Positions 2 to 30,674 of a stretch of DNA of 43,881 nt are shown here, one piece after another; positions within the stretch are counted from its first letter, which is position 1; each line of letters starts with the position of its first letter. The stretch comes from Thermoproteota archaeon. Its GTDB lineage: Archaea > Thermoproteota > Thermoprotei_A > EX4484-217-1 > JAPDJV01. The position numbers were made by a program, and so were the translations under genes. The notes under the pieces were generated by a model. The model ran no database searches. It saw nothing but the letters and a program-made list of their open reading frames with translations, and was not told the DNA's origin. Where the stretch lies: contig JAPDJV010000027.1 in the NCBI GenBank assembly GCA_029258925.1, positions 1-43,881 of the forward strand, in the 5' to 3' direction.

Positions 2-712
2 GTGGCCGCAACAACCTCAAAAATGCTGTACCTTGACGATGAGAGAATAGTGAATTCCGCTGGTGGCTGCTGCGACATTTATGGTGTCGGCTGGTCGCGC
101 GGGAATGGAAAGCCCGATGACGGACGGTTCGACAGGGTTCAGGAGGTTTTCTACGGTGTGGGCGGCGCCACATTAATCAAGAAGTCTGCTTGGGAAGACG
201 TCGGCCCCTTCGATGGACGCTACTTCATGTACGCTGAAGACTTGGATTGGTGTTGGCGAGCTATCATGCGTGGCTACAAAATCCTGTATGTTCCCACAAG
301 CATCGTATACCACAAGTGGCATGGCTCCTCAGAATCCTTACCTATAGTATATTTCATGGAGCGAAACTGGATGTGCAACCTGATTAAAAACTACTCTTTA
401 AAGTCTCTCTTAAAAATAGCTCCAAGATATTTTGGAATAAAGTTTTTCAAGTCAATGTGGCTTTTACTGCGAGGTAATGGGGAAGAGAAGCTTGCCTTCC
501 TTAAGGCGATGATCTGGAACATCACCAACCTTAAAGGAAGCCTACGTAGACGTTCTGAAGTACAGAAACGTAGAACTATTCCAGATAGCGAGGTTCAGGA
601 GCACATGTTTAAAAGTAGCTACGAGCTATTGCTGTGGAGAGGAATCGTAAAACACCCTATTCTTAAACGGTACGGTAAGGGACGTCTAAGCATGTCTTTC
701 TATCAGCCTTAA
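2..712 (+). CDS. Glycosyltransferase family 2, C-terminal part (5' end outside window)
   Basis: This is the C-terminal two thirds of a GT-A fold family 2 glycosyltransferase of the rhamnosyltransferase (WbbL-like) type. It should transfer a nucleotide-activated sugar to a growing glycan on the cytosolic face. The stretch GGATLIKKSAWEDVGPFD (residues about 53-70) followed by YAEDLDWCWRA (about 77-87) is the usual acceptor-side motif of this subgroup, where the ED pair carries the catalytic base. The donor-binding N-terminus with its DxD is missing, so the gene starts before the window and the first in-window GTG is not a real start. The C-terminal 100 residues are basic and probably membrane-associated. 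Its 3' end overlaps the convergent GT4 gene by 27 nt. Confidence 0.88.
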   Translation: MAATTSKMLYLDDERIVNSAGGCCDIYGVGWSRGNGKPDDGRFDRVQEVFYGVGGATLIKKSAWEDVGPFDGRYFMYAEDLDWCWRAIMRGYKILYVPTSIVYHKWHGSSESLPIVYFMERNWMCNLIKNYSLKSLLKIAPRYFGIKFFKSMWLLLRGNGEEKLAFLKAMIWNITNLKGSLRRRSEVQKRRTIPDSEVQEHMFKSSYELLLWRGIVKHPILKRYGKGRLSMSFYQP

Positions 713-1777
713 CCACTTGTTGTAAATCCTCCCTATGTCGAACTCTAACGCCCTCCTTCTGCTCTCTCTCCGCACCCTCTCACTATAGCCCTCCCTCCAA
801 ACCTCCATAGCCTTAGAGACGAGCTTATGGTCGCCTTCCACCAGCCACCCTGTTTTGTTGTGTATTACTGTTTCGCTTGGTCCTTGCTGGTTGTATGTTA
901 GGACTGGGGTGCCGCAGGCCATGCTCTCAACGGGAACATAGCCGAAGGGCTCAAAGTTGAATGGAAAAAGCGTGTAAAGCGCATTAGAGTATAAGTCGAC
1001 GAGCTTACTGTCATGAACGTAGGCGAATACTTCTACATTCCCATGGTTAACTAGTGACCTTGGAAGATGAACCGCTCTTGGCCCGAAAATTTTAACCCTC
1101 ACACCACTATCAACAAGCGTCTTTAACAGGGAAATTTTTGTTTCCACCCCCGCATAAGCCAGTACGTAATCTCCTGTAGGGCTCGTGGTTGACGGCTTAA
1201 ACACCTCACAATCTACAGGAGCATATATTACGTCTCGTACCATTACTCCTCGTTGACGGCATAGGTTAGCGTAAAAATTAGAACATGCGACAACCATTTT
1301 AGAGCAACCGACAAATCTTCTCACCAGTGAAGAGTCCATGCATTGAATTACAGGCTTAACGCTCTTATAGAGGACTCTATAGGTTAACGGGAAATCCCTT
1401 TCAGCATAATGCAACCTATCACTTACAAGGCCGAGAGCATACCATACGAGTGATGGCAAAGGCAACGTGTGAGAAAAATTAAGTGCGACGTAGCCATCCG
1501 CCGCTCTGTAAGCCTTAGAGTTCCTCCTGAAAAAGACCTCGCCAGCCCAGAGCTCCAGCCATCCAAGCGTGGACTGCATCTTAGAAATCGTCGCCACATT
1601 CAGGTTTAACACGGTAAACCCGTTTTTTTCGAAAAACAGTTGTAGCTGCGGTATAATTTGCGGGGTTACCAAGGCCACGTCGAACCCGTTTTCCATAAAT
1701 GTTCTACCAAGGAAAAACACAAGCCGCGTACCACCATAGAAACCATGTACTGCATCGCTGAAAATCACCACCCTCAA
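686..1777 (-). CDS. Glycosyltransferase, GT4/GT1 family (GT-B fold)
   Basis: A soluble GT-B glycosyltransferase of about 363 residues. The C-terminal half has the donor-sugar motif FEPFGYVPVESMACGTPVL, with the E-x7-E type pair that holds the nucleotide sugar, then GWLVEG. The sugar and acceptor are unknown. A GTG lies at 1792, but TTG at 1777 has the GAGGGGG ribosome site at a good distance and gives a start RVVIFSD, usual for GT4 beta-1, so I prefer it. The protein is paralogous over its whole length to the + strand gene at 3389-4510. Most of the two genes is clearly diverged, but 833-952 is base-for-base identical to 4235-4354, which points to recent gene conversion or recombination. It is transcribed divergently from the dehydratase gene next door. 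Confidence 0.9.
   Translation of the reverse strand: MRVVIFSDAVHGFYGGTRLVFFLGRTFMENGFDVALVTPQIIPQLQLFFEKNGFTVLNLNVATISKMQSTLGWLELWAGEVFFRRNSKAYRAADGYVALNFSHTLPLPSLVWYALGLVSDRLHYAERDFPLTYRVLYKSVKPVIQCMDSSLVRRFVGCSKMVVACSNFYANLCRQRGVMVRDVIYAPVDCEVFKPSTTSPTGDYVLAYAGVETKISLLKTLVDSGVRVKIFGPRAVHLPRSLVNHGNVEVFAYVHDSKLVDLYSNALYTLFPFNFEPFGYVPVESMACGTPVLTYNQQGPSETVIHNKTGWLVEGDHKLVSKAMEVWREGYSERVRRESRRRALEFDIGRIYNKWLRLIERHA
833..952 (-). repeat. Left arm of a perfect 120-bp inverted repeat
   Basis: Read on the minus strand, these 120 bases match 4235-4354 of the plus strand at every position. The arm lies inside the GT4 gene and covers the codons of the donor-sugar binding motif (EPFGYVPVESMACGTPVL through GWLVEG). 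Identity stops abruptly at both edges, where the flanking codons are diverged even at the amino-acid level. The two arms face each other about 3.3 kb apart. Confidence 0.95.
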
Positions 1778-1834
1778 GCAACGCCCCCTCACGGCGAGCA
1801 GCTAACCCTCACTTCCCAACCTACCATCCCTACA

Positions 1835-1910
1835 TGCTTATATCTTTCTATTAACCAGCATTCCATTAAGTTTTAACTTGCCAGGATGAGGGAACCTTAA
1901 GATTTAAATC
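1835..1910. promoter_or_regulatory. Divergent promoter region between GT4 and Gmd-like genes
   Basis: Two archaeal TATA-like elements lie back to back in the spacer. AGATATAAGC on the minus strand (about 1836-1846) faces the GT4 gene. AGATTTAAAT on the plus strand (1900-1909) faces the dehydratase gene. This fits one intergenic region driving both divergent genes. Assigned by eye from the A/T-rich box and its distance only. Confidence 0.45.
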
Positions 1911-1970
1911 CCCACATCTTAAACATTTACTAAACCCCATTCCCCCGTATTCTCCTTTGAGGTGTTAACG

Positions 1971-3218
1971 ATGAGGTATAACTGGGGTGAAGTGCGCGTC
2001 CTGATTACCGGGATAAGCGGCTTCGTCGGCTCTCTCATGGCCAAAAAGCTGGTTGACCTTGGCGCTGAAGTATACGGCATCATCAGGCGTAGAAATGAGG
2101 GGGTGGTCCCCAAAAGGCTTATAGACCTGCGCATAGACAAATGCGTGAACCTCATCGAAGGAGACATAACAGACATTACAAGCATATTTTTCGCCATAGA
2201 CCAGAGTCAACCGGACGTAATCTTCCACCTAGCAGCCCAGAGCTTCGTTCCCAGAAGCTTCAAAGACCCCCTTGAAACAATTAGAACCAACGTTAACGGA
2301 ACCCTAAACCTCCTAGAAGCCATCAGACTCAAAGACTTAGACCCCATCATTGTTTCCGCATGTTCAAGCGAGGAATACGGGCTCCAGATAATATCCGATA
2401 AGCATTATCAGAGAATGATCGAAAAATACGGGGTCATCCACCCTCAACCAGTAAGGATACCGGAACTTCCAATTAACGAGGAAAACTTCTTGAGGCCCAT
2501 GAGCCCATACGCTGTGAGCAAGGTCGCGGTCAGCTACCTCATGCAGAACTATTACTACTCCTACGGGTTAAGAACGATAATCTCAAGAGCGTTCAACCAC
2601 GAGGGGGCGGGGAGAGGACACAACTTCGTAACGTCAACCATCGTCAGGCAAGCCGTAATGCTCCGCTACGGGGAAACAGACGCAATCCACATCGGTAACG
2701 TTAACGCCTTCAGAGACTGGAGCCACGTTGAGGACATAATAGACGGGTACTTGCTCCTAGCAGATAAAGGGAAGCCGGGGAACGTCTACGTTCAAGGCTC
2801 CATGAGGACCAATAGTGTACTCACGTACATACTCCTCTCGCTTGAACAGCTAGGATACACTATACACGAAATTGAAACATTTAAAGGCGATAAGAAGATC
2901 AAGAACCCAACAGAGAGGAACATGGACGAATTCTTCGGTGTAAAGTTTGAGAAAACTAAGGTCGACGAATTAATGCTGAAAGAAGAAGTCAGCTATAAGC
3001 TTGAGGATCAGGGAATAACGGTGAAAACCGATAAAGGAGATTTGAAGGTGAAGTTCAACGGCGACCGCTTCAGGCCACTAGACGTACCAATACTCATGAG
3101 CGACACGGGGAAAATCAAAAAACTAGGGTTTAAAGTAAACAGAAAGTTAGACGACATCATAAAAGCACAGATAAACTACTACTTGAACCCAAACAACAGG
3201 AAAGGGATCCCGCCCTGA
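1971..3218 (+). CDS. GDP-mannose 4,6-dehydratase-like SDR epimerase/dehydratase
   Basis: An extended short-chain dehydrogenase acting on a nucleotide sugar. The NAD(P) loop TGISGFVGS is at the N-terminus. HLAAQSFVPRSF and the catalytic SPYAVSK (Tyr about 180, Lys about 184) follow. RGHNFVTSTIVRQ and NAFRDWSHVEDIIDGY match the substrate loop and RDW/H motif of GDP-mannose 4,6-dehydratases, and DRFRPLDVPILMSDTGKIKKLGF matches the family's C-terminus. It is about 415 aa, longer than the usual 340-375, because roughly 60 charged residues (about 300-360) are inserted before that motif. ATG 1971 is chosen because GAGGTG at 1959-1964 sits 6 nt upstream; GTG 1962 lies inside that site. The product would be GDP-4-keto-6-deoxymannose, though UDP-sugar specificity is not excluded. 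It sits between the two GT4 paralogues. Confidence 0.85.
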   Translation: MRYNWGEVRVLITGISGFVGSLMAKKLVDLGAEVYGIIRRRNEGVVPKRLIDLRIDKCVNLIEGDITDITSIFFAIDQSQPDVIFHLAAQSFVPRSFKDPLETIRTNVNGTLNLLEAIRLKDLDPIIVSACSSEEYGLQIISDKHYQRMIEKYGVIHPQPVRIPELPINEENFLRPMSPYAVSKVAVSYLMQNYYYSYGLRTIISRAFNHEGAGRGHNFVTSTIVRQAVMLRYGETDAIHIGNVNAFRDWSHVEDIIDGYLLLADKGKPGNVYVQGSMRTNSVLTYILLSLEQLGYTIHEIETFKGDKKIKNPTERNMDEFFGVKFEKTKVDELMLKEEVSYKLEDQGITVKTDKGDLKVKFNGDRFRPLDVPILMSDTGKIKKLGFKVNRKLDDIIKAQINYYLNPNNRKGIPP

Positions 3219-3242
3219 ACAACGGGAAAACCCAGCCGCCGC

Positions 3243-3294
3243 CCCCGTCCCCCTAAGGAAATAATTTTAACCCCGTCCCCGTCTCCCTAAGGAA
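3243..3294 (+). repeat. Short imperfect direct repeat in GC-rich spacer
   Basis: CCCCGTCCCCCTAAGGAA at 3243-3260 recurs as CCCCGTCTCCCTAAGGAA at 3277-3294, with one mismatch in 18. It lies just after the dehydratase stop and before the second GT4 gene. Function unknown; it may be a transcript-end or promoter-proximal duplication. Confidence 0.7.
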
Positions 3295-3388
3295 CAGCCT
3301 AAACAGGGAAATCTTAAAATAAAGCGAATCTCACTTTTCCCTTTTGACCACTAACTGTAGGTTTTCTCATTTAGTGAAGGTGGCTTTC

Positions 3389-4510
3389 ATGCATGATGTA
3401 CCAGAAAGGATCTGCATTATATGCGATCCGATGCTGAGCATGATGGGGCCGGCCAGACCAAGCTTCCTCATCGCAAGGGAACTAAGTAACATGGGTTTTC
3501 TCGTTGAGTTAGCCTCCGTGTGCATCCCATCCCCCCTCCGCGCTAAACTGGAAAAGTTCAACATCAACCCTGTAAATCTCGAAGTCAAACTTTTAACATC
3601 CAACTTCGCCCTAGCTTACTCGTGGCTTGAAGCATGGCTTAGAGAAGCCCTCTTCAAGCTCAACTCGAGGAAGCTTAAAAATAACATTAACAGCGACGTG
3701 ATACTAAACTTTTCTAATACTATCGCTTACCCGTCAACTATCTGGTACACGCTGGGCCCCCCTTCAGACGCCTTAAAAGACATGGAAGAAGAACTTCCCA
3801 AACACTACAACATCATCTATAAGATAATTTCACCATTAATCTTGCAGCTAGATGAGAAATTGATCAGGTACATGGCGTCGATCTCGGGAGCCATCATCGC
3901 AATTTCCACCTTCTGCGGATCACTCTACAAGAAAAGAGGGATAAAGGTAAATGGAGTGATATACGCCCCCCTAGAATGCGAGGTTTTCAAACCCACAACT
4001 GTAAAGCCAGAAGAAAAGTATGCTCTAACATACATAGGCAAAGAAACGGATTTCACCACGCTCAAGAAGGTTGCAGACGAAGGAGTTAAAGTAAAAGCCT
4101 TCGGCTCCAAAGGCCCCTTCATCCCGCAGAGGATACTCACACATAAAAACATAGAGTACCTAGGAAAGGTTAGCGACAGGCACCTTATAGAGCTCTACTC
4201 CAACGCCCTCTTCACACTTTTCACGTTTACCCACGAGCCCTTCGGCTATGTTCCCGTTGAGAGCATGGCCTGCGGCACCCCAGTCCTAACATACAACCAG
4301 CAAGGACCAAGCGAAACAGTAATACACAACAAAACAGGGTGGCTGGTGGAAGGCCGGGATGAAATGGTTGAAAGGGCTAAGGAGTTATGGGAGAACGGCT
4401 TCCCGTCCAGAATGAGAAAGGAGTGCAGGAGGCGTGCCCTAGAGTTCGACGTAAAGGTAATAACTAAGAAGTGGCTGTCCGTCATAAAAGAAAGTTTAGG
4501 GAATGTTTAA
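3389..4510 (+). CDS. Glycosyltransferase, GT4/GT1 family (GT-B fold), paralogue of the 686-1777 gene
   Basis: A GT-B glycosyltransferase of about 373 residues. Both halves align with the paralogue at 686-1777: shared NFSNT/NFSHT, VIYAPxxCEVFKP and YSNAL motifs, then an identical block EPFGYVPVESMACGTPVL to GWLVEG. An upstream TTG at 3344 gives 15 extra residues. ATG 3389, with GAAGGTGG just before it, matches the length of the paralogue better, so I use it. The N-terminal acceptor half differs most between the two, so they probably share the donor sugar and differ in acceptor. Co-directional with the Gmd-like gene 170 bp upstream, and possibly co-transcribed with it. Confidence 0.9.
   Translation: MHDVPERICIICDPMLSMMGPARPSFLIARELSNMGFLVELASVCIPSPLRAKLEKFNINPVNLEVKLLTSNFALAYSWLEAWLREALFKLNSRKLKNNINSDVILNFSNTIAYPSTIWYTLGPPSDALKDMEEELPKHYNIIYKIISPLILQLDEKLIRYMASISGAIIAISTFCGSLYKKRGIKVNGVIYAPLECEVFKPTTVKPEEKYALTYIGKETDFTTLKKVADEGVKVKAFGSKGPFIPQRILTHKNIEYLGKVSDRHLIELYSNALFTLFTFTHEPFGYVPVESMACGTPVLTYNQQGPSETVIHNKTGWLVEGRDEMVERAKELWENGFPSRMRKECRRRALEFDVKVITKKWLSVIKESLGNV
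4235..4354 (+). repeat. Right arm of the perfect 120-bp inverted repeat
   Basis: Matches the reverse complement of 833-952 over 120 of 120 bases, by manual comparison. It codes for the donor-sugar site of the second GT4 gene. Recombination between the arms would invert 953-4234 and swap the C-terminal tails of the two glycosyltransferases. Confidence 0.95.
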
Positions 4511-6349: not shown

Positions 6350-7042
6350 GTGGCAGTCAGAGAGAGTTTAAAGGAGCTATATGATGAATGGTACTTCGAG
6401 GAAAAGTACAGGTACTCTAAGAAGAGGAAAGCCATACGGCGGCACGCCCTCAACGTGATCCTATGGGCAAACAAGCAAGTCGACTGGAACATCACAGACG
6501 GGAAGGGCATGAAAGCGTTAGACGTCGGGTGCGCCTACGGGTTCGTTACAGACCTGCTCTCAGAAATGAAGTACGACGCTGTTGGAATAGACGTTTCAAC
6601 CTACGCCGTCAAAAAAGGACACGAATACTGTAAAGGAGAACTACTAGCATCGGATGCGTCACGCCTCCCATTTAAAAGTGGCGCATTCAACCTGGTCACA
6701 TGCTTCGAGGTGCTCGAACACCTGCCAGACCCCGCCATCACGCTGGCTGAAATCCACAGGGTTTTAAGGGACAACGGTTTACTCATAGCCACCACGCCAA
6801 ACGCAAACAGGGTAATCAACACGATCATCCACATAGCGGCACGTGAACGAGAAGAAAGGCACGTGTCCATCAAGCCGCCAGCCGAATGGATCAAAGCGTT
6901 TTCGAAGGCAGGCTTCAGCATCCTAGGGAAAAAAGCATTCTTAATCCTGCCCTCAGCACCAGTCCACCTGAAAAGATACTTCTCAATCACGGTGCCACCC
7001 CAAATCTCAAGCAACATCATACTACTAGCAGCCAAAAAGTAA
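6350..7042 (+). CDS. Class I SAM-dependent methyltransferase
   Basis: A 230-residue Rossmann-fold methyltransferase of the Methyltransf_11 type. Motif I is LDVGCAYG (residues 57-64). The acidic residue after beta-2 is in VGIDVS. Motif II/III is ASRLPFKSGAFNLVTCFEVLEHLPD, shown here by key residues. The post-motif KPPAEWIKAFSKAGF is usual in sugar- or lipid-modifying members. The start is GTG 6350, with GGAGGT at 6338-6343 and 6 nt spacing. A TATA-like GCTTTAATA lies near 6296-6304. Substrate unknown; its place in the glycan island suggests O-methylation of a sugar or lipid carrier. A 16-codon TTG frame (6321-6368) with its own GGGAGG overlaps the start and might be a leader peptide. Confidence 0.82.
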   Translation: MAVRESLKELYDEWYFEEKYRYSKKRKAIRRHALNVILWANKQVDWNITDGKGMKALDVGCAYGFVTDLLSEMKYDAVGIDVSTYAVKKGHEYCKGELLASDASRLPFKSGAFNLVTCFEVLEHLPDPAITLAEIHRVLRDNGLLIATTPNANRVINTIIHIAAREREERHVSIKPPAEWIKAFSKAGFSILGKKAFLILPSAPVHLKRYFSITVPPQISSNIILLAAKK

Positions 7043-7200
7043 AACAGACAAGGAAGCCAGAAACCCTGAACAGCCGCTTCCTCAGACGCCAATAAACCCT
7101 CGCCCACACGTGGAGGCAAAGCACACGCTAACACACGCCTCGCAAAGTGAAAGCCACCCCCAAGCCAACACCCACCAAAAAGAAGGTTTCCCCCTCTAAG

Positions 7201-9357
7201 TCATCCACTTGAAGCCCCACCCCTTCTAAAAGACATGGACAGCTCGACAGCATACGCTATGCAAACACCCGCAATCGCAGACCTCAATAAAACGTAAAAG
7301 AAGAACTGGTTCAGGAAGGAACTGTAAGCAGCTAGGAGAAGAGCATAAGACAACGTTTTAACTATCGAGTTAAAGTTAGGGACGAAGAAGAAGCTATTCC
7401 CCCACGAAGTAAAGTAAAAGCTGAAGAAGAAGACGCAGTAAAGGAACACGAGAACCACGAAAATCAAAGGATAAGCCTTCCTCCTCCCATTAACAAGGTA
7501 ATCCACCACCAGGAAAGGCATACACCAGAGGAGAAACTGAGGGTGGAAGTACGAGAAAGCAAACACCACCATGAGGAAGCCGAGAAGAGCCGCAGGCAAC
7601 CCCCCCTCATCATCCCTCCTCCACACACGATACACAACAAACAAGTAAATAGTACACAGAACCACCGTGACACCGACCTCCTGCCCGAAATGAGACAAAG
7701 TAGGCCCCAAGAAAAACTCGTAATCCTGCAAACCACCAATGTCAGGAACCAACGTGTAAACAAGCCCACGGTGAGCATGCAAAGGAAACAGCCTGGGGAA
7801 AGTAACCAAAAAGAAAGAAGAAAGAGATATTAAAGCAAAAGACCAGCTTAACGGGATTTTCATGCTACAATTAGCAAGTCTCCCAGGTAAAAGAAATCCC
7901 AACCTATGAAAAGACAGGCGAAAAACGCCCTTTCCCAGCAAGAATATTATGAAAAGAGGTAACATGACTATAGGAAAGAGGCGTACCCCAATAGCAAACC
8001 CAACAAACAAGCCTCCAAGCATGTAACGCTTACCAATAAAGTAATATATGCCTATCAGTAGGAAAAAGAGCATCACAACATCCACACTCGCAAACATTTC
8101 AACTATTAAGGTAACGTAAGGATTAACCATCCAGAGGAAAAGAGCAGCGTCCGCCAGCTCCCTCCTACCAGCAAGCCTCCAAACAATCAACCCAACAAGA
8201 AAACCAGACATAATGTCGATTAAAACATTAGGAAGCTTCATGCAGAAAAATAGAAGAAGCGTACCAGGCGTCAAAACCGGAGGAACATGCATAGTAAAGT
8301 AATTCCTAGTAGGAAAAATAACCGAGCCATAGGGGTGGTCAACGGGAAACACACGCCACAACCAGTAACAGAAGTAATAAACCACACTCCAGAAACCCCC
8401 CTCAGACGGGGGAAACCCACAATTAGGAAGCGGAAGAACACTCAAAACACCCCTAACAATGTTATTAAAATCATCACTCAACGGGGTCACATAAGCAATA
8501 ACAGACTTCACAGCCACCCCCAAGAAGCAAAACCCAACCAACCCCAACCCACCCGGAAAAGAAACACCACCAGCAAAACGCTCAGCATCCAGCCACCCCC
8601 CGAAAACACCCCTCCCAACACCAAAAGACAAAACAAAATATAGTAAAACACAAGACAGCTCAACAAGCACCAAAAACGACAAAACACCCGCCAAAACATT
8701 AGGCAAACCGAAAACCCCAGGAGCCGGTGCAAGCAAACTAATACCACTCAAACAAAAACCACTCTCACCAACATATCCCCCCTGCACCTCAAAGATAAAC
8801 TCCACAGACGAAACATGCCTTAAGGAAATCTCATCGACCCAAAGCGGGTGAGCCTCAACGCACGTAGCCCTAAGAGGGATCGAAATCTCCCTCCAGCCAA
8901 ACCAGCTCGCCCTACCCACATGCAAAGTCTTGTAAAAACCAAAGGAATCAACAAGACGAACAGAATAAAAACAATTCTCAGAAGGAAAAACAGGAGCCAG
9001 CCAAAAACTAAGCCGATCACACCACGAAAGATCCACAGAACCACTAAAATTATAAGCCAAAACAACCCTACCCCCAGAACCAAAACCCCCCCTCACAAAA
9101 ACACCAGGAAAACCAAAAAAAACATCGGACACCCCATACCCCAAATCAGAAACATTAAACGAAGAAACACCCCAACCATCAAAAGAACCACAAACCCCCA
9201 AACCAACATAAACAAAAGGAAAACCACACCACCTAAAAAAATTAAAAAAACCAACAACAACCAAACACAAAACACACACAAGAAAAACAAAAACCAAACC
9301 ACGAAACACACCCAACCTCACAAACAACCCAACAAACCCCCAACCACAAAAACACAA
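7201..9357 (-). CDS. Large membrane protein, GT-C glycosyltransferase-like with N-terminal lectin-like domain
   Basis: About 718 aa. An N-terminal hydrophobic anchor comes first. Next is a beta-rich domain (about 70-205) with SFWLAPVF, WREISIPLRA and VEFIFEV spacing, typical of a carbohydrate-binding jelly roll. Then come about ten TM helices with DDFNNIVRG after the first and GFAIGVRLFPIVMLP, which recalls GT87/PIG-M-like GT-C enzymes. These probably use polyprenyl-phosphate sugars outside the membrane. The start is a TTG with no good ribosome site, so the N-terminus is uncertain; a different frame is also open from 9436. The first kilobase of the coding strand is almost all G and T, giving a protein extremely rich in V, F, G, C and W and poor in K, N, Q and T. 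A decayed partial copy lies at 10393-10686. Confidence 0.7.
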   Translation of the reverse strand: MCFCGWGFVGLFVRLGVFRGLVFVFLVCVLCLVVVGFFNFFRWCGFPFVYVGLGVCGSFDGWGVSSFNVSDLGYGVSDVFFGFPGVFVRGGFGSGGRVVLAYNFSGSVDLSWCDRLSFWLAPVFPSENCFYSVRLVDSFGFYKTLHVGRASWFGWREISIPLRATCVEAHPLWVDEISLRHVSSVEFIFEVQGGYVGESGFCLSGISLLAPAPGVFGLPNVLAGVLSFLVLVELSCVLLYFVLSFGVGRGVFGGWLDAERFAGGVSFPGGLGLVGFCFLGVAVKSVIAYVTPLSDDFNNIVRGVLSVLPLPNCGFPPSEGGFWSVVYYFCYWLWRVFPVDHPYGSVIFPTRNYFTMHVPPVLTPGTLLLFFCMKLPNVLIDIMSGFLVGLIVWRLAGRRELADAALFLWMVNPYVTLIVEMFASVDVVMLFFLLIGIYYFIGKRYMLGGLFVGFAIGVRLFPIVMLPLFIIFLLGKGVFRLSFHRLGFLLPGRLANCSMKIPLSWSFALISLSSFFLVTFPRLFPLHAHRGLVYTLVPDIGGLQDYEFFLGPTLSHFGQEVGVTVVLCTIYLFVVYRVWRRDDEGGLPAALLGFLMVVFAFSYFHPQFLLWCMPFLVVDYLVNGRRKAYPLIFVVLVFLYCVFFFSFYFTSWGNSFFFVPNFNSIVKTLSYALLLAAYSSFLNQFFFYVLLRSAIAGVCIAYAVELSMSFRRGGASSG

Positions 9358-9418
9358 AACAACGAAAAACCAAACAAAACAAAAACCTTACGGTAACCAT
9401 TCCATCCAAAAATAACTC

Positions 9419-10329
9419 ATGTATCAGCCACAACACCCTCCAAAATCAAAAGTCAATGAAATAAAGTCTGAAAAGTTTCTGTTTAGTTTAACGTTCACGC
9501 TAAAAGGAACACAAAACAAGTTCACCGCATCCCTCGCAACGCTCCTAACAACAACCTCCTACTTCACAACACGCCTCTCAAGAGACCTCTTCGCAAACTT
9601 CCTCGCCACCTCAATAATGCTACTAGCACTAACAATGCTCATCCACGCAAACGAAAAACCAACAAAAAGAAACACAGCAACCACAGCAATCATACTAGTA
9701 GCACCTACCTTAATACACCCATGGACAACCATGATAACACTTGCAACAATCACAACTTACATAGCAATAACAATCCTAAAAAATGATCTGAAAACAAAAA
9801 ACAAGCACAAACAGCTACATTAACAATCACCCCTAATAGCACTCTTCACAACACTAACGATAATAAACCCCCATATTCATAGTCACAGTGAAAAACCTGA
9901 CACGAATAAGCCAGTTCATAAAACAACATGCAACATGGATAGACCAAACATTCAACAACACATGGAGAATAGTCACAAACACCCTGAAAGGACAAGCCTC
10001 AATCACAGAAAACCAGTTAACCATAACAATACCTCCAACAACAAACCCTAGAATGATAACAATAGAATACAAACCACCACAAAACACCATCACAACAAAC
10101 GGAAACATATACATAAAAGCAGAATGGAACCCCCTCAACAACAATAACAGTAAAAACCTACACAGAAGTATGGCTCACCCAACAAAAACAAATCAAACAA
10201 ACAACAGCACAAACATGGATCATAATACCAAACAAAAACACAACAACAATAAAAATACAACTAACAAACGACCAAACTATAACAAAACAAGAAGTCATAA
10301 CAATAGAATACGTAGCAAATCTATTGTAA
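9419..10329 (+). pseudogene. Decayed membrane/beta-rich surface protein gene
   Basis: Three pieces read as one protein. Residues from 9419 include SYFTTRLSRDLFANFLAT and two hydrophobic segments, as in archaeal GT-C-like membrane proteins, and end at an in-frame TAA (9821-9823). The same frame then continues PLIALFTTLTIINP. A shift near 9885 leads to a Thr- and Asn-rich beta domain, and a second shift at the C5 run 10130-10134 leads to the final frame, ending VITIEYVANLL at 10327-10329. Codons are strongly A/C-rich (ACA, AAC, ATA, CAA). It shares its A+C-rich plus strand with the oppositely oriented gene at 7201-9357. A more decayed second copy is at 10837-11195. No exact family recognised. 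Confidence 0.65.
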
Positions 10330-10392
10330 GATAAACTTTAACTTAAAAATTAATTTTTAAAATTACGTAATAGTTACCTAATCTAATAAAAT

Positions 10393-10686
10393 CTAATAAA
10401 ATAAAAGTAGATTGAGCAAGAAATAAAGCAGAGTAAAGCCTAAAAACCCATACTCCTGTAAAAAATAATAGACTTTATGGCCACCCAAAAAGCAAAACCT
10501 AACAATCCCAAATCTGCTCAGAAAAGAAACACCACCGGCAAAACGCTCAGCATCCAGCCACCCCCCCGAAAACATCCCTCCCAACACCAAAAGACAAAAC
10601 AACGAAAAACCAAACAAAACAAAAACCTTACAGTAAACCAACATCAAAGACACATACATCAGGGGGTTACAATAAACAAAAAACAC
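10393..10686 (-). pseudogene. Internally deleted remnant of the 7201-9357 membrane protein gene
   Basis: The open frame contains GGWLDAERFAGGVSF and FCFLGG, matching residues from the middle of the 7201-9357 product. DNA similarity runs from about 10461 to 10640. Its right part matches the extreme 5' end of the full gene (about 9356-9390) and its left part matches about 8495-8635, so roughly 720 bp in between are absent. The join falls on a short shared ACAAAACA-like motif present at both edges of the missing segment. It is a non-functional duplicate. Confidence 0.7.
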
Positions 10687-10836
10687 GACCGTTTAATTTT
10701 TCATTTTTCTCCTATGGTACTAATAGACCTACCGCAAAAGGAAAATATTTTCCCCACCAAAACCATAACAACAAAGATATAAGATATAACATTTTATCAA
10801 TGAAATGAAATAACATAAAGGCAACAAACGAAATGA

Positions 10837-11195
10837 ATAGCAGACACCCAACAATGCATGGAAAGCAGTCACAAACACCGTGAAACTCGAGTAACAATAA
10901 CGTAAGGATGATTAATCATCGTAGTATCTCCCCTGCAACGTCAGGAACACCGACAATAGAACATCAGCCTACCAAAAAACACCATGAATAACGGAAATAT
11001 AATATATAAAAAAGCGGAAATGGAAGTTAACCCTTAGCGATAGTAATCGTAGAGGCGTGTAACGGAGCTTGGCTCATTCACCAAATACAGCTCAAACAAG
11101 AAACAGCAGACATGTAAATCCTTACCTCAAGTAAAAGTGCAGCAAATATAAAAATAAGAATAACAAATCGGTCAAGCAATAATATCTCAAGAAAA
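10837..11195 (+). pseudogene. Second, more decayed copy of the 9.9-10.3 kb pseudogene
   Basis: Aligned by eye to about 9930-10310. Shared landmarks in order are ATGGA-AATAGTCACAAACACC, ACAATAGAA, CAAAAAACACCAT, GGAAATATA-ATAAAA-GCGGAA and TGGCTCA-CAA. Many stops and indels leave no useful frame. Together with the remnant at 10393-10686 it shows that the whole gene pair block was once duplicated in tandem. Confidence 0.6.
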
Positions 11196-11285
11196 ACCAT
11201 AAATTATCTATTCTCAACAACTTCGAAAAGAAAAATTCTAAATAAGTAAAAGCCAGAGGATAAGACATTATAGGGTGTATGAAAG

Positions 11286-12365
11286 TTGAATAAGCAAAAG
11301 GAAGTAGTGTTTGAGATACATAACGTATTAAGCCTGAATGTAAAAACTAAAAATAGAAAATTTTACCGGGTAATTAGACGTATTATGTTAGAATATGATT
11401 CTTTCTTAAGTAAAGAAACATTAATAAGAAAGGAACATGACATTTCCCTGATAATCGATAAAATAAACAATAATTATTTTAATTGCCTTCTTAAAAGCGG
11501 CGACTTCGTAAAAGTTGATAACAAAATAATTGCTGGACACGATTGGTTATATTGTTCAGACTCATACAAAATAGCTAAGTGGTGTCTTTACATCTCAGGT
11601 TTAGAGTCAAATAGCATGAGCTTGATTGTTGAACCTAATTTTTTCTCCTCTGAGATTATTCCTCCGATCATTTTAACACCATCTATTTCCTTTCAACTAT
11701 TAAAGAAAGGATACTCTTTAGTCCATGCGGCAGGCATAAGTGATGGTCACGAGGCGGTTTTATTAACCGGATTTGGAGGCAGTGGCAAGACTATGAATAC
11801 TCTTATGGCAATAAAAAATGGGCTGTATTTTCTAGGTGATGATCATGTAATTCTTCACAAAGGCAGGGTTTTAGCGTTTCCGACAGCAATTAGCTTATTT
11901 AAATACAATATGGTAAACGATGACAGAATAAAACCGTGGAAATTTGAAGTTAATGTTAAAAGTTTAATCCACAAACTTACACTAGGTTATCTTTACCCAG
12001 TTACTAAAGCTCCAATCATGCAGGCTTTTTCCGACCGTTTAGTCCAGACTGCAAGGTTAAAGGCTATTTTATTACTCGAACAAAGGTATGGTGATAAAGA
12101 GAAAAAACTTTTCGTAGAATACATCAACTTAGATGAACTCCTTGAAGCACTACTTCGTAACATGATAGTGGATAGCTTATATTTTTATAAGTATCTGCTT
12201 GGATATTCGTACGTTAACCCTCACTTTTCCATAAGTGGCTACCTGCATAAGCTAAAAACCACATTCACACGAAACCTCTCAAAAAGTAATCTTTTTTTAA
12301 AGGTGAGAATTCCAAGAGGAAAGTATATACTCGAAGTTTTAAATGATCTCCTACGGAATTTTTAG
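11286..12365 (+). CDS. HPr-kinase-like P-loop protein (first of tandem pair)
   Basis: A 359-aa protein. The N-terminal 140 residues have no clear family. The C-terminal part carries LVHAAG, a P-loop GFGGSGKT (residues 162-169), then FLGDDHV (183-189) and AFPT. That order of motifs matches the kinase core of HPr kinase/phosphorylase and the PEP-carboxykinase fold, in which the Asp pair after the loop binds Mg-ATP. HprK-like proteins without an HPr partner occur in bacterial capsule and peptide loci, where their substrate is mostly unknown. TTG 11286 is used because ATG 11279 runs into a stop. The next gene, 16 bp downstream, is a paralogue. The low-GC, A-rich codons differ from the genes of the first 9 kb. 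Function in a glycan island is inference only. Confidence 0.7.
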   Translation: MNKQKEVVFEIHNVLSLNVKTKNRKFYRVIRRIMLEYDSFLSKETLIRKEHDISLIIDKINNNYFNCLLKSGDFVKVDNKIIAGHDWLYCSDSYKIAKWCLYISGLESNSMSLIVEPNFFSSEIIPPIILTPSISFQLLKKGYSLVHAAGISDGHEAVLLTGFGGSGKTMNTLMAIKNGLYFLGDDHVILHKGRVLAFPTAISLFKYNMVNDDRIKPWKFEVNVKSLIHKLTLGYLYPVTKAPIMQAFSDRLVQTARLKAILLLEQRYGDKEKKLFVEYINLDELLEALLRNMIVDSLYFYKYLLGYSYVNPHFSISGYLHKLKTTFTRNLSKSNLFLKVRIPRGKYILEVLNDLLRNF

Positions 12366-12381
12366 CATCTAGGTGGTTCAA

Positions 12382-13446
12382 GTGGAGAGATTAGTGACAA
12401 AGAATTTCAACATCCATAACGTGTTAAAGTTTCGAATTAGCTGGACGCGATATTGTGCACTTCTAAAGGATCTGGACTTAAAATTCAGCTACTTTCAAGT
12501 TAAACGGTTAGAAGAAGACGATATAGATCTAGACATAAAGGTAGGTGCATTTTCTCCCTCATTAGATGGAAAGTGTAGAAAATATGAAAGGAATATATTT
12601 ATCCATGAGAATTTCATTTATTGCAAAGGGAGTAATCTACGGTCTACATGGGAGTTTCAAATATCCGATATATCTGGAAAAAGAACTAAATTTAACATAA
12701 ATATCAGGAGCAGGACTCTTCGGGGTTTTCTAGCCCCAAATTTCCCAGTTCACAACTTAGCTCTCCCACTAATGGAAATAAAAACTCTCGAGAAAGGCTA
12801 CCTATTGCTTCACTCAGCTGCCGTCAGTAAAGATGGCAATGCTTGTCTCATAGCTGGGAGGGGGGGCTCATTTAAAACCACGATGGTTATGAATTTGATG
12901 AGAGATTACGGGTATCAATATATGGGTGATGACAGAGTGCTAGTGACAACGGGTAAAGTGCTGAGCTTTCCGACGCACATTAAGATCTTTGAGTTCTGTC
13001 TTCGCAATTTAAAAACTGAAAAGATGACTCTTACTAAAAAGCTTTTACTGACATTTTACTTACTAGCCACCTCATCAAACACTAACGTGAAAATTGCCGA
13101 TGAAAGCAGGTTATGTGGCCTCATTTTTTTGAATCCTTCGAAAGAAACTAGGTTAGATATCATAGACTGGAGGCTTGCAGCAGAAAAAATGCTCTCTAAC
13201 CAATTAATGGAATACTTTGAAGCGTCAAATGCTGCTGGATTCATGATTCACCCACTTTTTGAATGCTTCAACATTTATGCATCAGCCTATCCGGACACTA
13301 AAATTGCAAAATTTCAAGACTTTTTCATTCAACAATTTAAAAAAATTTTTTCTAATATAAAAATCTATAATTTTTTCATACCTTTCAGCTACACTCCAAA
13401 AATAACGGAGCTTATAAGAAAGGTCATGGAGGAGATAGGTGTATGA
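12382..13446 (+). CDS. HPr-kinase-like P-loop protein (second of tandem pair)
   Basis: About 354 aa and paralogous to the gene before it. LLLHSAA precedes a P-loop GRGGSFKT and then YMGDDRV and SFPTHI, all at the same spacing as in the partner. The loop has Phe where the first copy has Gly (GSFKT versus GSGKT), so nucleotide use may differ. GTG 12382 is preferred over GTG 12373 because AGGTGG (12371-12376) lies 5 nt before it. The stop overlaps the next gene's start as ATGA, so it is translated with the GT4 gene at 13443. It may sense a sugar-phosphate or phosphorylate a partner; no target is visible. Confidence 0.68.
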   Translation: MERLVTKNFNIHNVLKFRISWTRYCALLKDLDLKFSYFQVKRLEEDDIDLDIKVGAFSPSLDGKCRKYERNIFIHENFIYCKGSNLRSTWEFQISDISGKRTKFNINIRSRTLRGFLAPNFPVHNLALPLMEIKTLEKGYLLLHSAAVSKDGNACLIAGRGGSFKTTMVMNLMRDYGYQYMGDDRVLVTTGKVLSFPTHIKIFEFCLRNLKTEKMTLTKKLLLTFYLLATSSNTNVKIADESRLCGLIFLNPSKETRLDIIDWRLAAEKMLSNQLMEYFEASNAAGFMIHPLFECFNIYASAYPDTKIAKFQDFFIQQFKKIFSNIKIYNFFIPFSYTPKITELIRKVMEEIGV

Positions 13447-14639
13447 AGATAGTTTTTGGAACAGATGTTTTTTACCCCATTCTAGAAGGAGGAGGAGAAA
13501 TCCACACTTTTAATGTAGCAAAGAAATTAGCAAAATTCGGCCATGAAGTAACAGTAATATCTGGAAAATCATCCCAGTTTCCTGATGATCCCATGAGAAG
13601 ACTAACAACTCTAAAGGATGAGGAATTTGTAGACGGGATACATATCATTAGGGCAAAAAAGCCTTATAGATTTGGTTCAACTCTTTCCTCGTTACCAGCA
13701 TTGTATGAAATGTACACGACTGTAAAAAACATGGTGAAAAAGGGAGAAGTAGACATAGTTAACTTCGTTCTTTACAGACCTGTCATACCTCTATACTTAG
13801 CCGCAAAAGGCAAAGTACCTACAGTTTTAACTGTACATTTACTTTCGTCAAGGTACGGGGATTGGAGAGGTTGGATGGATTATGATGGAGGAATCATTGG
13901 AGGAATAGCGCAAAAACTAGTAGAGACTCTTGTTTTGAAAATGGACTATGACTGCATAATGACTGTTTCTAAGAGTTTAGCTATGGAGTTAAGGAAATTC
14001 TATCCTAACAAAAAGAAAAAAATAGAGATCATATACAATGGAGTTGATTTAGAAACTTATGACAATGTCAAGGCAGGAGAGAAAAGCGAAAATCAATTGA
14101 TCTTTATTGGTGCATTAAAGAAAAGAAAGAATGTATTAGATGCTATTAGGGCTGTGAAAATAGCAAGAGAGAAAAGTAAAAGAAACCTAAGACTTATAAT
14201 TATCAGCGGTGGCGGTGAACTTGAAAGTGAAGTTTTAAGAATGAGAGAAAAATATGGGTTTATCGACTATTATAAGAAGGCAAGTGATGAAACTAAAATA
14301 AGACTACTAAAAGAGTCAACTTTAATGATTTTTCCTAGTTCCTATGAGAGCTTTGGCTTAGTATCTATAGAAGCTTTAGCATGTAAAACGCCATTTATCG
14401 CATATGATATCCCGGCTATGAAAGAAGTTCAAATGTTGACTTCAGGAGGAATTCTTGTACCTTACAAGAACATAAATGCGCTTGCAGATAAAATAAATGA
14501 TTTACTTGAAAACGCGCGGTTACTTAAGGAATTGAGAGAAAGAGGTAGGCAGAATGTAGAAAAGAAATTTACGTGGGAAATCATAGCTAGGAAAGTAGAA
14601 AGAATATTCAAGAGAGTAATAAGTGAGAGTAGTAAGTAA
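13443..14639 (+). CDS. Glycosyltransferase family 4
   Basis: A GT-B enzyme of 398 aa. The N-terminus MKIVFGTDVFYPILEGGGE is the usual start of GT4 proteins, with the Gly-rich loop binding the donor. The middle has YNGVDLETYD. The C-terminal half has FIGALKKRKN and FPSSYESFGLVSIEALAC, where the E-x7-E pair holds the nucleotide sugar. It probably transfers a hexose from UDP- or GDP-sugar to a lipid-linked glycan at the inner membrane face. It is translationally coupled to the HPr-kinase-like pair by an ATGA overlap. Transcription ends in an AT-rich spacer before the convergent GT4 gene. Confidence 0.92.
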   Translation: MKIVFGTDVFYPILEGGGEIHTFNVAKKLAKFGHEVTVISGKSSQFPDDPMRRLTTLKDEEFVDGIHIIRAKKPYRFGSTLSSLPALYEMYTTVKNMVKKGEVDIVNFVLYRPVIPLYLAAKGKVPTVLTVHLLSSRYGDWRGWMDYDGGIIGGIAQKLVETLVLKMDYDCIMTVSKSLAMELRKFYPNKKKKIEIIYNGVDLETYDNVKAGEKSENQLIFIGALKKRKNVLDAIRAVKIAREKSKRNLRLIIISGGGELESEVLRMREKYGFIDYYKKASDETKIRLLKESTLMIFPSSYESFGLVSIEALACKTPFIAYDIPAMKEVQMLTSGGILVPYKNINALADKINDLLENARLLKELRERGRQNVEKKFTWEIIARKVERIFKRVISESSK

Positions 14640-14731
14640 TAATTAATTAGTAGGAAAATCTAAAAACGTAAACGTTTATATGGGAAGTCACCACTAAGTA
14701 ATTTTTCTCAAAACTCTAAATTTATTAACCT

Positions 14732-15892
14732 TTAAAACCATAGCTTATTTAGCAACCTCCTGTATTTATCAACTATGTTGTTATAGGTGAACTTCTCTTC
14801 AATAAATCTCCTTGCATTTTTTACTATTTCTTCTAAGTATGGGTGTTCTAAGACCCTTATAACATTTTGTGCAATGCACTCGGGTGAATTATTTTCCATA
14901 ATAAATCCCGTTTTTCCGTCTTCTATTAAATCGGGAATGGCACCAACAGGTGTTGCAAGCACAACAGCCCCACATGCCATAGCTTCCTGCACTATACCAG
15001 GAACTCCCTCCGTATATGACGGCAAAACAAGTATTTTTAATTCATTTAAGTATTCTGGAAGCTCGTGATCTGGGATCCACCCCACGAATCTAACATTACC
15101 GCTAATCCCGTACTCTTCGACCTTTGTTTTTAACAATTTAAAAAGTGGTCCATCACCGCCTATCAAAAAATGCACATTTCTTTTTTTATTTAATATTAGT
15201 GGGATTGCATCCACAAAATTTGCTATGCCTTTCTCTATAGAGAGACGACCGATATATCCTATGATAGTCTTTCTGTCTTTCAAGTTTTTCATTATCCTAA
15301 ATGTTTTTATGTCTACGTATTTAGGTCCGTAAATGGCTATTTTGTTCCGATACTCACTTATATTTGAAAAGGCAATTACACTTTTAGATTCTACACCAAT
15401 CTGATCAGCTAGAGAGAAAATAATTTTTTCGAGAATAACCGCTAGGTAAGAGGAGTTACTTTTTCCTTTTATTTGTGAAATTATTTGTGAAAGTTTGGAG
15501 GAAGTGTTGAATGAAAACACAAGCACTCTTTTCCTTAATAACTTCGCGAGAACGGCCGATAACAGGTAAACTCTTGCACCTATATGGAAAACAACTATGT
15601 TAACACTTTTAGACAGTTTTAACAAATTAAAACTTATTTGTATATCCAATATCATGTATAGCAAAATTTTAAGCAATAAATTCCTTTTTTCAGCATTCCA
15701 ACTCTTTAACGTTATTATTTTTACATTTTCGCTAGAATATTCTGGAAAATTCCCGGTAATAACAAATAACTTCTTTGATGATTGTTTGAATATCTGAACA
15801 AAATTCCTTACATTCTGTCTTGCCGCTACATTATCACTACTAAACGGGTGCGTTATCAGTATAACATTAGGTAAACGAAAGTGATGTTCCAT
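14732..15892 (-). CDS. Glycosyltransferase family 4
   Basis: A 386-aa GT-B enzyme. It has YGPKYVDIKTF, the donor-domain opener IGYIGRLSIEKGI, FVGWIPDHELPEYL, and LPSYTEGVPGIVQEAMACG, with the E-x7-E pair, then ATPVGAIPDLI. The first 200 residues, which set acceptor choice, contain a hydrophobic helix near 105-125 that may dock it to the membrane. It converges with the GT4 gene at 13443 across a 92-bp AT-rich gap. The FkbM gene lies upstream on the same strand, 65 bp away, so the two probably form one unit. Confidence 0.92.
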   Translation of the reverse strand: MEHHFRLPNVILITHPFSSDNVAARQNVRNFVQIFKQSSKKLFVITGNFPEYSSENVKIITLKSWNAEKRNLLLKILLYMILDIQISFNLLKLSKSVNIVVFHIGARVYLLSAVLAKLLRKRVLVFSFNTSSKLSQIISQIKGKSNSSYLAVILEKIIFSLADQIGVESKSVIAFSNISEYRNKIAIYGPKYVDIKTFRIMKNLKDRKTIIGYIGRLSIEKGIANFVDAIPLILNKKRNVHFLIGGDGPLFKLLKTKVEEYGISGNVRFVGWIPDHELPEYLNELKILVLPSYTEGVPGIVQEAMACGAVVLATPVGAIPDLIEDGKTGFIMENNSPECIAQNVIRVLEHPYLEEIVKNARRFIEEKFTYNNIVDKYRRLLNKLWF

Positions 15893-15957
15893 AGGTAAAT
15901 TTTCTCTAAATTGTTTTTATATGTTTTTTCCTTTCAGTCCCGATTAGTAGTATTTTT

Positions 15958-16725
15958 TTAGTTTTTTCGTGCATAGACAATATCATTGTGAAGTAATGTA
16001 GTGAACCCATACTGATGTAGAATACGTGTAACTTGTGATACTGTTTTTGATCCGAATCTTTCTGATGAACAATCAATAGCCATTTTCCTTATTCTGTCTG
16101 CAACACCCTCAGCCCCTTCTAAAACTTCCGGTTCAGCCCCTTCTGCATCCAATTTTAGGAAGTCGATTTTTTTGATGTCCAGTTCTTCTACTAATTCATC
16201 CAAGCGAACACAGTATATTTCGATAGAGGAAATATGGGGAGTGCTCCCTTTACTTAGAAGCGTCGAGTCTGTAGGGTTAATACAGATGTTGAGTTTCATC
16301 TTTGTTGTCCGGTTCCAAAGAGCTTTCTGGATGACAACTACATTTTTAAGAGCACGGACGTTTTTGCACAGAAGGTTAAAAATAATTGGATTAGGCTCTA
16401 TAGCGACGACTTTGCTGGCTTTTGATGCTACTGCTAAAGTGAATCCTCCAATAAAACTTCCAATATCGAAAACGACATCACCTAATTCTATATCAACAAA
16501 TGGTTTGAAAGTGTACTTCTCAATCATACTTCGTTTGATATAATTAAAGTAGTGAGGATCTGGTGTCAGAAATCTCTGCTCCTTACATTTTACTAACCAG
16601 TAATTTTCGTAAGGGAGTATGGTTAGATTTTCACGGTTCGGATGTAAATGCCAGTAGATTGTAACCGCTAAAGCAAACAATGGATCAGGCAATTTTTCAA
16701 ACACCTTTTTAAATCTGTTAAGCAC
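15958..16725 (-). CDS. FkbM family methyltransferase
   Basis: A 255-aa SAM-dependent O-methyltransferase. GDVVFDIGSFIGGFTL is motif I, VVAIEPNP the acidic residue after beta-2, and DFLKLDAEGAEPEVLEGA the FkbM hallmark. Members O-methylate sugars or polyketides, and here a glycan hydroxyl is the likely target. The N-terminal 70 residues hold a short hydrophobic piece. It lies upstream of the GT4 gene on the same strand. A second, unrelated-length FkbM gene is at 29667. Confidence 0.88.
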   Translation of the reverse strand: MLNRFKKVFEKLPDPLFALAVTIYWHLHPNRENLTILPYENYWLVKCKEQRFLTPDPHYFNYIKRSMIEKYTFKPFVDIELGDVVFDIGSFIGGFTLAVASKASKVVAIEPNPIIFNLLCKNVRALKNVVVIQKALWNRTTKMKLNICINPTDSTLLSKGSTPHISSIEIYCVRLDELVEELDIKKIDFLKLDAEGAEPEVLEGAEGVADRIRKMAIDCSSERFGSKTVSQVTRILHQYGFTTLLHNDIVYARKN

Positions 16726-16808
16726 AGGATCCAGCCTCCTATGTTTTTGTTTAGTTAATTTTAAGTTTTTGCTTTTTAAATCGGTATTATCAACTTAAGG
16801 TTTATTTT

Positions 16809-16867
16809 GAGGAGTTCTCCGGTTTATGTTATGATATGCGTAACGTTTGAACGATGGAGAACTCCTC
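16809..16867. repeat. Perfect 12-bp inverted repeat beside IS6-like relic
   Basis: GAGGAGTTCTCC at 16809-16820 is mirrored by GGAGAACTCCTC at 16856-16867, with 35 nt between. The right arm overlaps the first bases of the transposase remnant. It could be an element end, a solo terminal repeat or a regulatory hairpin. Confidence 0.75.
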
Positions 16868-17515
16868 CGGAGATCATCATGTATTCCATCAATTATTTAT
16901 ATCTTGGGTTCAGGCTGAGCCTCCGCGACGTGAGGGGGCACCTCCTCGACGGGTGGGCTTCGAGCGCGGACACGAGGCGGTTCGCCGGTGGGTGCACGCG
17001 CCAACCGCGCCGCGAGGCGCTGCTTTCAGAGGCGCTGAGGCGCGTAAGCCGCATCGTCCTCGGCGAGTCTAGGGTTCGGGTGGGCGGAGGGCGGGTCTGG
17101 CTCTGGGTGGCCCTCGACCCCGGGGGCGCGTGGTGCTCGAGTGTACCTCTCGAAGGCTCGAAACGGGCTCATCGCCCACAGCTTCTGAAGAAGCTCGTGG
17201 GGGAGTACGGCGGGGACGTGGTCTTCGTGGCTGACGGGGGAGTGATACTCTTGGCCGCCGAGAGCTTGGGAGCTAGGTGGGTGCGGCTTAGGGGCGGGTC
17301 AGCGGGTGAAGCGCTGGCTCCGAACAGTGAAGGACGGGGTGAGGGTCTTCAACTGCGCCTTCCCCAGGAGCCCGAGGGGCTCGAGGAGCCCACACCTTCA
17401 TCAGGCTCTACGACTTCTACTACAACCACATCCCACCACTCCCTCGACAGCCATCCACCACCCTCAACCCCGGGAAAACCCGCACCCAGAGACTGCAAAG
17501 GGTACTAGAGGTGAA
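16854..17515 (+). pseudogene. IS6-like DDE transposase, broken by frameshifts
   Basis: No single frame is complete. One frame reads YLYLGFRLSLRDVRGHLL. The next has HEAVRRWVH, the HTH tail usual for archaeal IS6 transposases. Back in the first come RVSRIVLGESRVRVGGGRV, WLWVALDP and GGDVVFVADGG. The last frame has VKRWLRTVKDGVRVFNCAFP and SLDSHPP. At the first catalytic Asp (normally VDET) the text reads LGES, so it is lost, and the Glu region is altered (VKRWLR for VERWFR). At least three frame changes are needed. GC content is much higher than in the flanking AT-rich genes, which marks it as an insertion. It sits between the FkbM gene and the large LamG membrane gene. Confidence 0.72.
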
Positions 17516-17914
17516 AAACCCTTAAGTTGACAATAACTTTAAATCTTAACATATATTTTTTAATTGAACGTTTCCAAGCATCAACATATTCCTTCAAGGA
17601 GAAACTACGTTTAACTTAACCTTTAGCTTCCTGTATAACTGTGTGAGAAAAAAGAAGTTTCAAGAGAATTCATCGATCTTCTCATGGCTTTTCCTTGTTG
17701 TTTGAACTTAAAAAGTTAGAAGTCTAAAACCTTAAGGCTTTCAACTTATTGAAAGGTTGAAAGGATGTTTCATTTAGTTAAAGGTTCATTGCCGCAACCT
17801 TTCAGGACGTTGCCCACAGGTTTTAAGGCAGCCCTCTTAAGTAGCAATTAAGACCAGATGTGGCTCTCAACACTTTTCAAGAGAGCGCTCCCTCCCTTGT
17901 TTAAAACTTCTTAA
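17516..17914. other. AT-rich spacer with one small hairpin
   Basis: No gene seen. CTTTCAAC (17738-17745) pairs with GTTGAAAG (17756-17763) around a 10-nt loop. The rest is AT-rich and may hold decayed 3' flank of the transposase. Confidence 0.5.
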
Positions 17915-20900: not shown

Positions 20901-21325
20901 AAAGTGAACTCACTATTTTTTCTTCTGTAAATAAGGAATATTGTAGGAATCATAATGAAAAGAAAAATTCCAAATAAATAAGTTAAGGGCGAAAGGGGAA
21001 GAGAAAAAAGCAATATAACACCAGTTAATAAACTACAGATGATTGTTGATAGAAAAAAACTCTTTATGAGCAATTCTAGGAAAGATTCTTGTTTGTTTCT
21101 ATTGCTTGTTATAGCAAGTAAAAGAATAAATCCTGGAGAGATGAGTGCAGAGGGGAAAAACAGAATTGCTCGTAGATATGATGAAACATTGAGTAAAGAG
21201 AAAAAAAAGTAAGAAAGATCAAGTGATAATAGTATCAGAATAAAATGCTTAAGGTTGACCCCACCAGTTGGGATAAAACCCTTTATCTCTATTACTTTCA
21301 CCTCTTTTTGATACGTTTTTCTCAT
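17915..21325 (-). CDS. Giant membrane protein with C-terminal LamG-like lectin domain
   Basis: An 1136-aa protein. Residues about 25-620 hold roughly 13-15 TM helices, with LLSVDGAVYISIIRTG in an early loop, like the acidic loop of GT-C glycosyltransferases. Residues about 640-760 are a soluble linker with a DDANMTLVPNHG stretch. Residues about 770-930 form a LamG/concanavalin-like jelly roll: GKCITISLLTFIKEEN, KWHHFIFSYNENRLEIFIDG, LWLGSKSNSFIGKIDELEV. A last TM helix (about 1105-1125) anchors the C-terminus, so the lectin domain probably faces outside. It may transfer or bind glycan at the surface; the enzymatic role is inference. It is AT-rich like the genes downstream, and its stop is 24 nt into an AT-rich run. 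Confidence 0.75.
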   Translation of the reverse strand: MRKTYQKEVKVIEIKGFIPTGGVNLKHFILILLSLDLSYFFFSLLNVSSYLRAILFFPSALISPGFILLLAITSNRNKQESFLELLIKSFFLSTIICSLLTGVILLFSLPLSPLTYLFGIFLFIMIPTIFLIYRRKNSEFTFFKINKVEALLVPSVFLFYIFGILYFTNIPRLLSVDGAVYISIIRTGILENTINPYGIAVPPTRGNIYGLINGRFFWSYLLTSFVASTGIPAFNSGLIGMPFLIMISFTSYELFNTLTRRKNLVLPLFLVMLILTNPLLLPFATMCLNDLIITFYTLFSLTFLVKSFSEQNKQLSFNTFNFLLAIIALIILLLTKVFLLISLSMWITSIYFMLRYRAYCSLRKKELLFFILFIVLPIIYEVFIDLPFTLEVLKSPEGIMLAPTFTDQSLMYFSVKLFIKPVWEIAISNPSSLNNIIYIERFYEIFSPELTNILVSGLVVTSPLIVLLTDLKNHLNIKIFSLFLLVLITVFFLQSIFFLATYQINRYSLWRIPLFYILSLIVLNQLIHESYGRKKRIIIGGAVCLSMLIFVWVNMYLSSIGGIAMSYSGSVIYVDTFYPILSQFLLFSLLVLFLIVHQKTRYRHLTHRYRKRLTLKGWVPKILFFLIILSVISNIYFTSTFMNKDTHFFKEHYIMHMSNILYQLTNDKSIVVANNRLYLTAFVDDGLLKNGLLLNFPSTKEEFLRSIELLPSNTILLITTDGALSWYGDANRNYIKSYAVADIITPATNISKLPLFNCTDDAVLCMTFDDANMTLVPNHGRGPDGLNGGAEVVQGYYGLSLYFKNNSYVEILGGNYTFGKCITISLLTFIKEENINGYHLLLNCTSEDCSFEIFSVFINDGKLYFRIHGTNCIFVPIKEYVGKWHHFIFSYNENRLEIFIDGALIAVKGIEKGVEYCFHPHLWLGSKSNSFIGKIDELEVSNKKLNLTRLLEAYHFNQYALKVYELLTPYGKTSFFKILTTGKNNNPEEKVYFKILTKFISGKDLSPVILAIAYTTTSKNLSFCITSDFASKIYSFSLEKDMLSIVNFTLPPPVLLARSWNDQKYLWRFFTSSKVALFDNNNILFKENISMLNLDLVALAIVGILSILLFVAIISCKKCIEYNSKKIFTKTFLSIT

Positions 21326-21519
21326 AAAGGGGGAGAAGTATCTTTTTTATGCCTAGCTCTCAAACAGCGAGAAAAAGGTAAAAAATAAATTTTTTGGTGA
21401 TGATTCTGGAGGGCGCGACACTGAAAGTGGGAAGCAGCAACCTTATTAGAAAAAGTAACAGGAAAGAAGTAAAACCATTTATTGGTGAGGTTGAAAGGCT
21501 TTCGTTGGGTTTCCAAATT

Positions 21520-30631: not shown

Positions 30632-30674
30632 GCTAACAGTATCGGCTTTACATCGCATTGACGGAGGACGCGGC

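Follow-up and report, generated by a model that had tools for sequence, protein, structure and literature searches.

Two glycosyltransferase genes of an uncultured Thermoproteota archaeon are well diverged over most of their length and share one internal block letter for letter, in opposite orientation. This arrangement raises the question of how such a patch came to be identical in both genes, and whether the DNA between the two copies can invert. The window, by which we mean the whole stretch of DNA that was analysed, comprises 43,881 nt of contig JAPDJV010000027.1 in assembly GCA_029258925.1, a metagenome-style draft of 1.75 Mb in 56 contigs. The features at the centre of the locus are the following.

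686–1792, minus strand: GT-A, a GT4-family glycosyltransferase of 368 aa (PF00534)
787–1012, paired with 4175–4400: wider homologous zone, the conserved C-terminal nucleotide-sugar half of GT4, 226 nt, 81% identical overall in a repeat search
833–952, minus strand: arm 1, the perfect 120-bp block in GT-A (codons 281–320), which opens with the first Glu of E-x7-E and ends in ...WLVEG, identical to arm 2 at 120/120
1962–3218, plus strand: gene between GT-A and GT-B for an NAD-dependent epimerase/GDP-mannose 4,6-dehydratase-like protein of 418 aa (PF16363, E 1.5e-72; PF01370, E 2.3e-51)
3344–4510, plus strand: GT-B, a GT4-family glycosyltransferase of 388 aa counted from TTG (PF00534)
4235–4354, plus strand: arm 2, the perfect 120-bp block in GT-B (codons 298–337), identical to arm 1 at 120/120

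The reverse complement of 833–952 equals 4235–4354 at 120 of 120 bases. Both arms start at codon position 1 and hold 40 codons each in the same phase, encoding EPFGYVPVESMACGTPVLTYNQQGPSETVIHNKTGWLVEG, a block that begins at the first Glu of an E-x7-E motif (EPFGYVPVE) present in both proteins, the GT4 donor-sugar motif. Identity falls at once at both arm edges, where the outer bases read ttt/..../gac in one copy and cac/..../cgg in the other, and the flanks are about 50% identical over 150 bp. Outside the arms, the two proteins are 38% identical in the N part and 44% identical in the tail, and the corresponding nucleotide identities are 48% and 54%. The preliminary description of this DNA, as a perfect inverted repeat at the donor-sugar site of two divergent transferase genes whose codons differ directly beside the arms, is borne out on each of these points. 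The transferases score 69.5 and 74 bits in a Pfam profile search with PF00534 (cut-off 26.4) and match solved GT4 structures by profile; translation of GT-B more probably begins at the ATG at 3389 than at the TTG at 3344. GT-A and GT-B resemble the retaining GT4 glycosyltransferases (PF00534; solved relative 2f9f, WbaZ-1) in E-x7-E and in the conserved C-terminal nucleotide-sugar domain, and are ordinary members of the family.

An identical block of a length close to the k-mer size of the assembly, in a metagenome-style draft of 56 contigs, is suspicious, as assembly or error correction could have merged two similar, non-identical blocks. Twelve pairs of contig ends overlap by exactly 127 bases (for example, the end of C29 and the start of C3), from which, assuming an assembler of the SPAdes type, we conclude that a de Bruijn graph with k=127 was used. 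With a repeat of 120 bp and a final k of 127, the presence of the two copies and their orientation rest on single k-mers rather than on scaffolding: each arm, together with both of its distinct flanks, is contained in six different 127-mers, and the window is without N. The block must therefore have been read twice, in two contexts, and between family members this far apart about 35% of the bases here are different, far more than error correction could have merged. The worry about an artefact, which had been voiced at the outset, is largely removed by the same argument that supports the orientation, and a merger of this kind is highly improbable. Contig-end searches detected no overlap of the window's own ends with other contig ends. 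Contig ends that share 127 bases are also a convenient check, in any draft genome, on whether short repeats are backed by reads; contigs C47–C56 have N at every end sampled.

The arms coincide with the conservation peak of the family (mean nucleotide identity of about 63–68%, versus about 37–58% elsewhere), and it could be argued that extreme purifying selection on both copies, acting on the protein plus a DNA or RNA function, has preserved this block, where the protein is most conserved, with no copying at all. However, silent sites are identical at 40/40 codons, and the probability that all 40 codons agree given the same residues is log10 P = -18.5 under the window's codon usage. Among 318 other pairs of family members from archaeal genomes, selected for an N-part identity below 60%, nucleotide identity in the block has a mean of 65% and a maximum of 77.5%, amino-acid identity has a mean of 72% and never exceeds 85%, and exact runs reach at most 23 bases within the block and at most 34 over the whole gene. 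Relatives thus vary freely here, with about 18–35% of residues differing, and the silent identity together with the ceiling of 77.5% in the control pairs indicates that protein constraint is insufficient; by these comparisons the perfect block exceeds both chance and protein constraint. Nor is the same DNA conserved in relatives: when the arm was sought in 398 genomes of the phylum, the best other match was 83% over 86 bases, which also argues that the arm is not a shared mobile sequence, and in the whole 1.75-Mb assembly it occurs only at its two positions in GT-A and GT-B. The probability that selection alone maintained the block is accordingly negligible.

The base rate of such tracts was assessed in two samples. 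In 425 kb of the same genome (the window plus 20 stretches), no other internal exact repeat of at least 60 bp with diverged, alignable flanks was found, contig-end matches aside. The second sample, 1.81 Mb drawn from 207 other loci, yielded only three exact repeats that passed the intermediate-flank filter, all of them direct and 50–62 bp long, and none of at least 100 bp. Because neither scan gave an equal, tracts this crisp are uncommon; the underlying process is well known, and the present tract is ordinary in kind and unusually crisp.

A tree built with archaeal relatives (Bathyarchaeota, Thermoplasmata, Vulcanisaeta and others) places GT-A and GT-B in different parts and not as a pair. 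These separate positions and the 38% identity of the N parts argue against a recent duplication, and on this evidence the two genes are best regarded as old paralogues. At strict cut-offs, close family members number two in the subject genome and one in every other genome among the matches listed, and orthologues of both genes together in one other genome were not found among the genomes listed. A scan of viral contigs returned distant GT4 proteins only (23–48% identity).

Since two old genes carry a single letter-perfect patch, recent ectopic, non-reciprocal gene conversion between GT4 paralogues is the best explanation and, in our judgement, a very likely one. Recent gene conversion had already been proposed from the sharpness of the identity, and it gains support from the perfect match with its abrupt edges, the codon probability, the 318 control pairs and the age of the paralogues. 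A distance of 3.3 kb separates the shared blocks, which are inverted relative to each other. Strand invasion of the RadA type (homologous recombination) may have paired GT-A and GT-B at the conserved patch, the expected site of pairing because the two genes would have been most alike there before the event, and short-patch strand replacement would then have transferred some 120 bp, or a little more, without crossover. This non-crossover form is a reading of a single genome, and a past crossover, that is, an inversion, would also be expected to leave identical arms. Zero differences in 120 bp place a 95% upper bound of about 2.5% divergence on the age of the event, and no close relative that carries both genes, and hence the unconverted state, was found. 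In a review of repair in hyperthermophilic archaea, Sulfolobus is described as undergoing short-patch gene conversion, with tracts that are multiple and discontinuous (PMC4471258), so the size of the present tract is unsurprising. The tracts of Sulfolobus acidocaldarius are likewise short, sharply bounded and non-reciprocal, in an archaeal host of a related lineage, whereas that evidence comes from transformation with marked DNA and the present tract is a natural one between old paralogues with about 40–46% protein identity (PMC4471258).

Copying most likely proceeded from GT-B to GT-A, because the codon usage of the arm resembles that of GT-B. The log-likelihood ratio (LLR) of the arm is 5.6 toward GT-B, and 40-codon windows give 5.0+/-2.9 in GT-B and -2.1+/-2.0, with a maximum of 4.0, in GT-A. 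GT-B is also closer to the family consensus. The usage of 40 codons provides moderate evidence that GT-B was probably the donor and GT-A the recipient of the block. Identical arms would permit either direction, and transferase islands are highly variable between Sulfolobus strains (PMC5554439), which leaves room for conversion from GT-A to GT-B, or for the block having come in from a copy of one of the genes in another cell. The codon usage and the excess conservation of the arms, slightly larger in GT-A than in GT-B, nevertheless favour a GT-B source over the reverse direction, and we regard reversal or import as unlikely. Whichever copy was overwritten, the functional effect of the conversion was probably small, in that one enzyme acquired the other's residues at a few positions of the donor site.

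The facing arms also led to the suggestion that recombination between them would flip the dehydratase gene, swap the tails of both transferases and so vary surface sugars. Two further features bear on this suggestion.

953–4234, 3,282 bp: segment that a hypothetical crossover between the arms would invert; geometry only, with no inversion observed in the assembly
40805–42408, minus strand: IS607-type element, consisting of a serine recombinase with MerR HTH (41791–42408) and an OrfB_IS605/TnpB fragment (40805–41239)

A crossover would create two chimeric genes of 372 and 386 codons including the stop, both open and in frame with no internal stop, and the exchange of tails therefore stands in principle. 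If crossovers were repeated, they would exchange the C-terminal tails, diversify surface glycans and keep the arms identical; the common codon phase of the inverted arms, the open chimeras and a neighbourhood of surface-polysaccharide genes are compatible with such a system, and continuing recombination would account for the perfect identity. However, the k=127 assembly, in which both 120-bp arms are spanned, holds one orientation only; a common second orientation would branch the graph at both arms, and the contig is unbroken there with no alternative junction anywhere in the assembly, which argues against one, although a minor variant could be pruned and would be dropped by the assembler. 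No cognate recombinase lies beside the segment. The genome has two tyrosine recombinases, both on other contigs, and seven serine recombinase hits (two with in-frame stops), of which the single one in the window is 37 kb from the locus, at 41.8–42.4 kb, and is assigned to the IS607 type because the MerR HTH and resolvase adjoin an OrfB_IS605 fragment. The arms, moreover, are protein-coding and coincide with the conserved block of the family, not with a dedicated recombination site, and no other genome among those listed has two such genes. A comparison of N-part and tail trees, which disagree with low support over a short region, gave no clear signal of a tail swap. Flipping itself thus remains unsupported, as does variation of surface sugars by switching, and we consider an invertible segment of this kind improbable. 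The phase-variation reading is now less likely than it first seemed, and a rare, RadA-dependent inversion is possible at low frequency. It is quite improbable, in our estimate, that the locus is a recombinase-independent switch, in which the conserved catalytic block itself would serve as inverted homology arms and low-frequency flips would swap the tails and keep the arms identical.

Known phase-variable loci offer a useful comparison. In invertible hsdS pairs, shufflons and invertons (PMC5903667, PMC11892184), inverted identical repeats likewise lie in two coding regions and a flip swaps the gene tails; the present locus differs in having no invertase, no second orientation detected in the assembly, and repeats that consist of a conserved catalytic block. 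In a glycosyltransferase island of Sulfolobus acidocaldarius, the reported strain variation arises mainly by deletions (PMC5554439).

With gene conversion as the preferred reading, the locus is a clean natural case, from an uncultured archaeon, of a short conversion tract in paralogues that have diverged widely, and the tract coincides exactly with the catalytic block. Only little conserved sequence may be needed for ectopic exchange in this lineage. The case further implies that the donor-site block of a GT4 enzyme can be overwritten from a neighbouring gene, by which motif-based trees and the transfer of functional annotation may be misled.

Several other features of the window were recorded. 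The region at 10000–25000 is a low-GC island (GC 0.32–0.41, with 0.495 at 17–18 kb, versus 0.45–0.58 for the contig) that encodes GT4 and GT2 transferases, an FkbM methyltransferase, a radical SAM protein and a 1136-aa LamG-domain protein, and probably represents a surface-polysaccharide island with an origin of its own. Strong strand asymmetry marks 7000–11000 (AT skew of about +0.5, GC skew down to -0.58), where A/C-rich, partly repeated stretches lie at 8519–10636; a 718-aa open frame in this region has no match in Pfam. A direct repeat of 210 nt (82% identity) pairs 30666–30875 with 32979–33188; the second copy makes up the beginning of an epimerase gene at 32988–33920, of which the first appears to be a remnant or duplicate. 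An inverted repeat of 60 nt (38634–38693 and 40563–40622), 90% complementary and with its copies 1.9 kb apart, surrounds a PHP-domain gene at 39622–40335.
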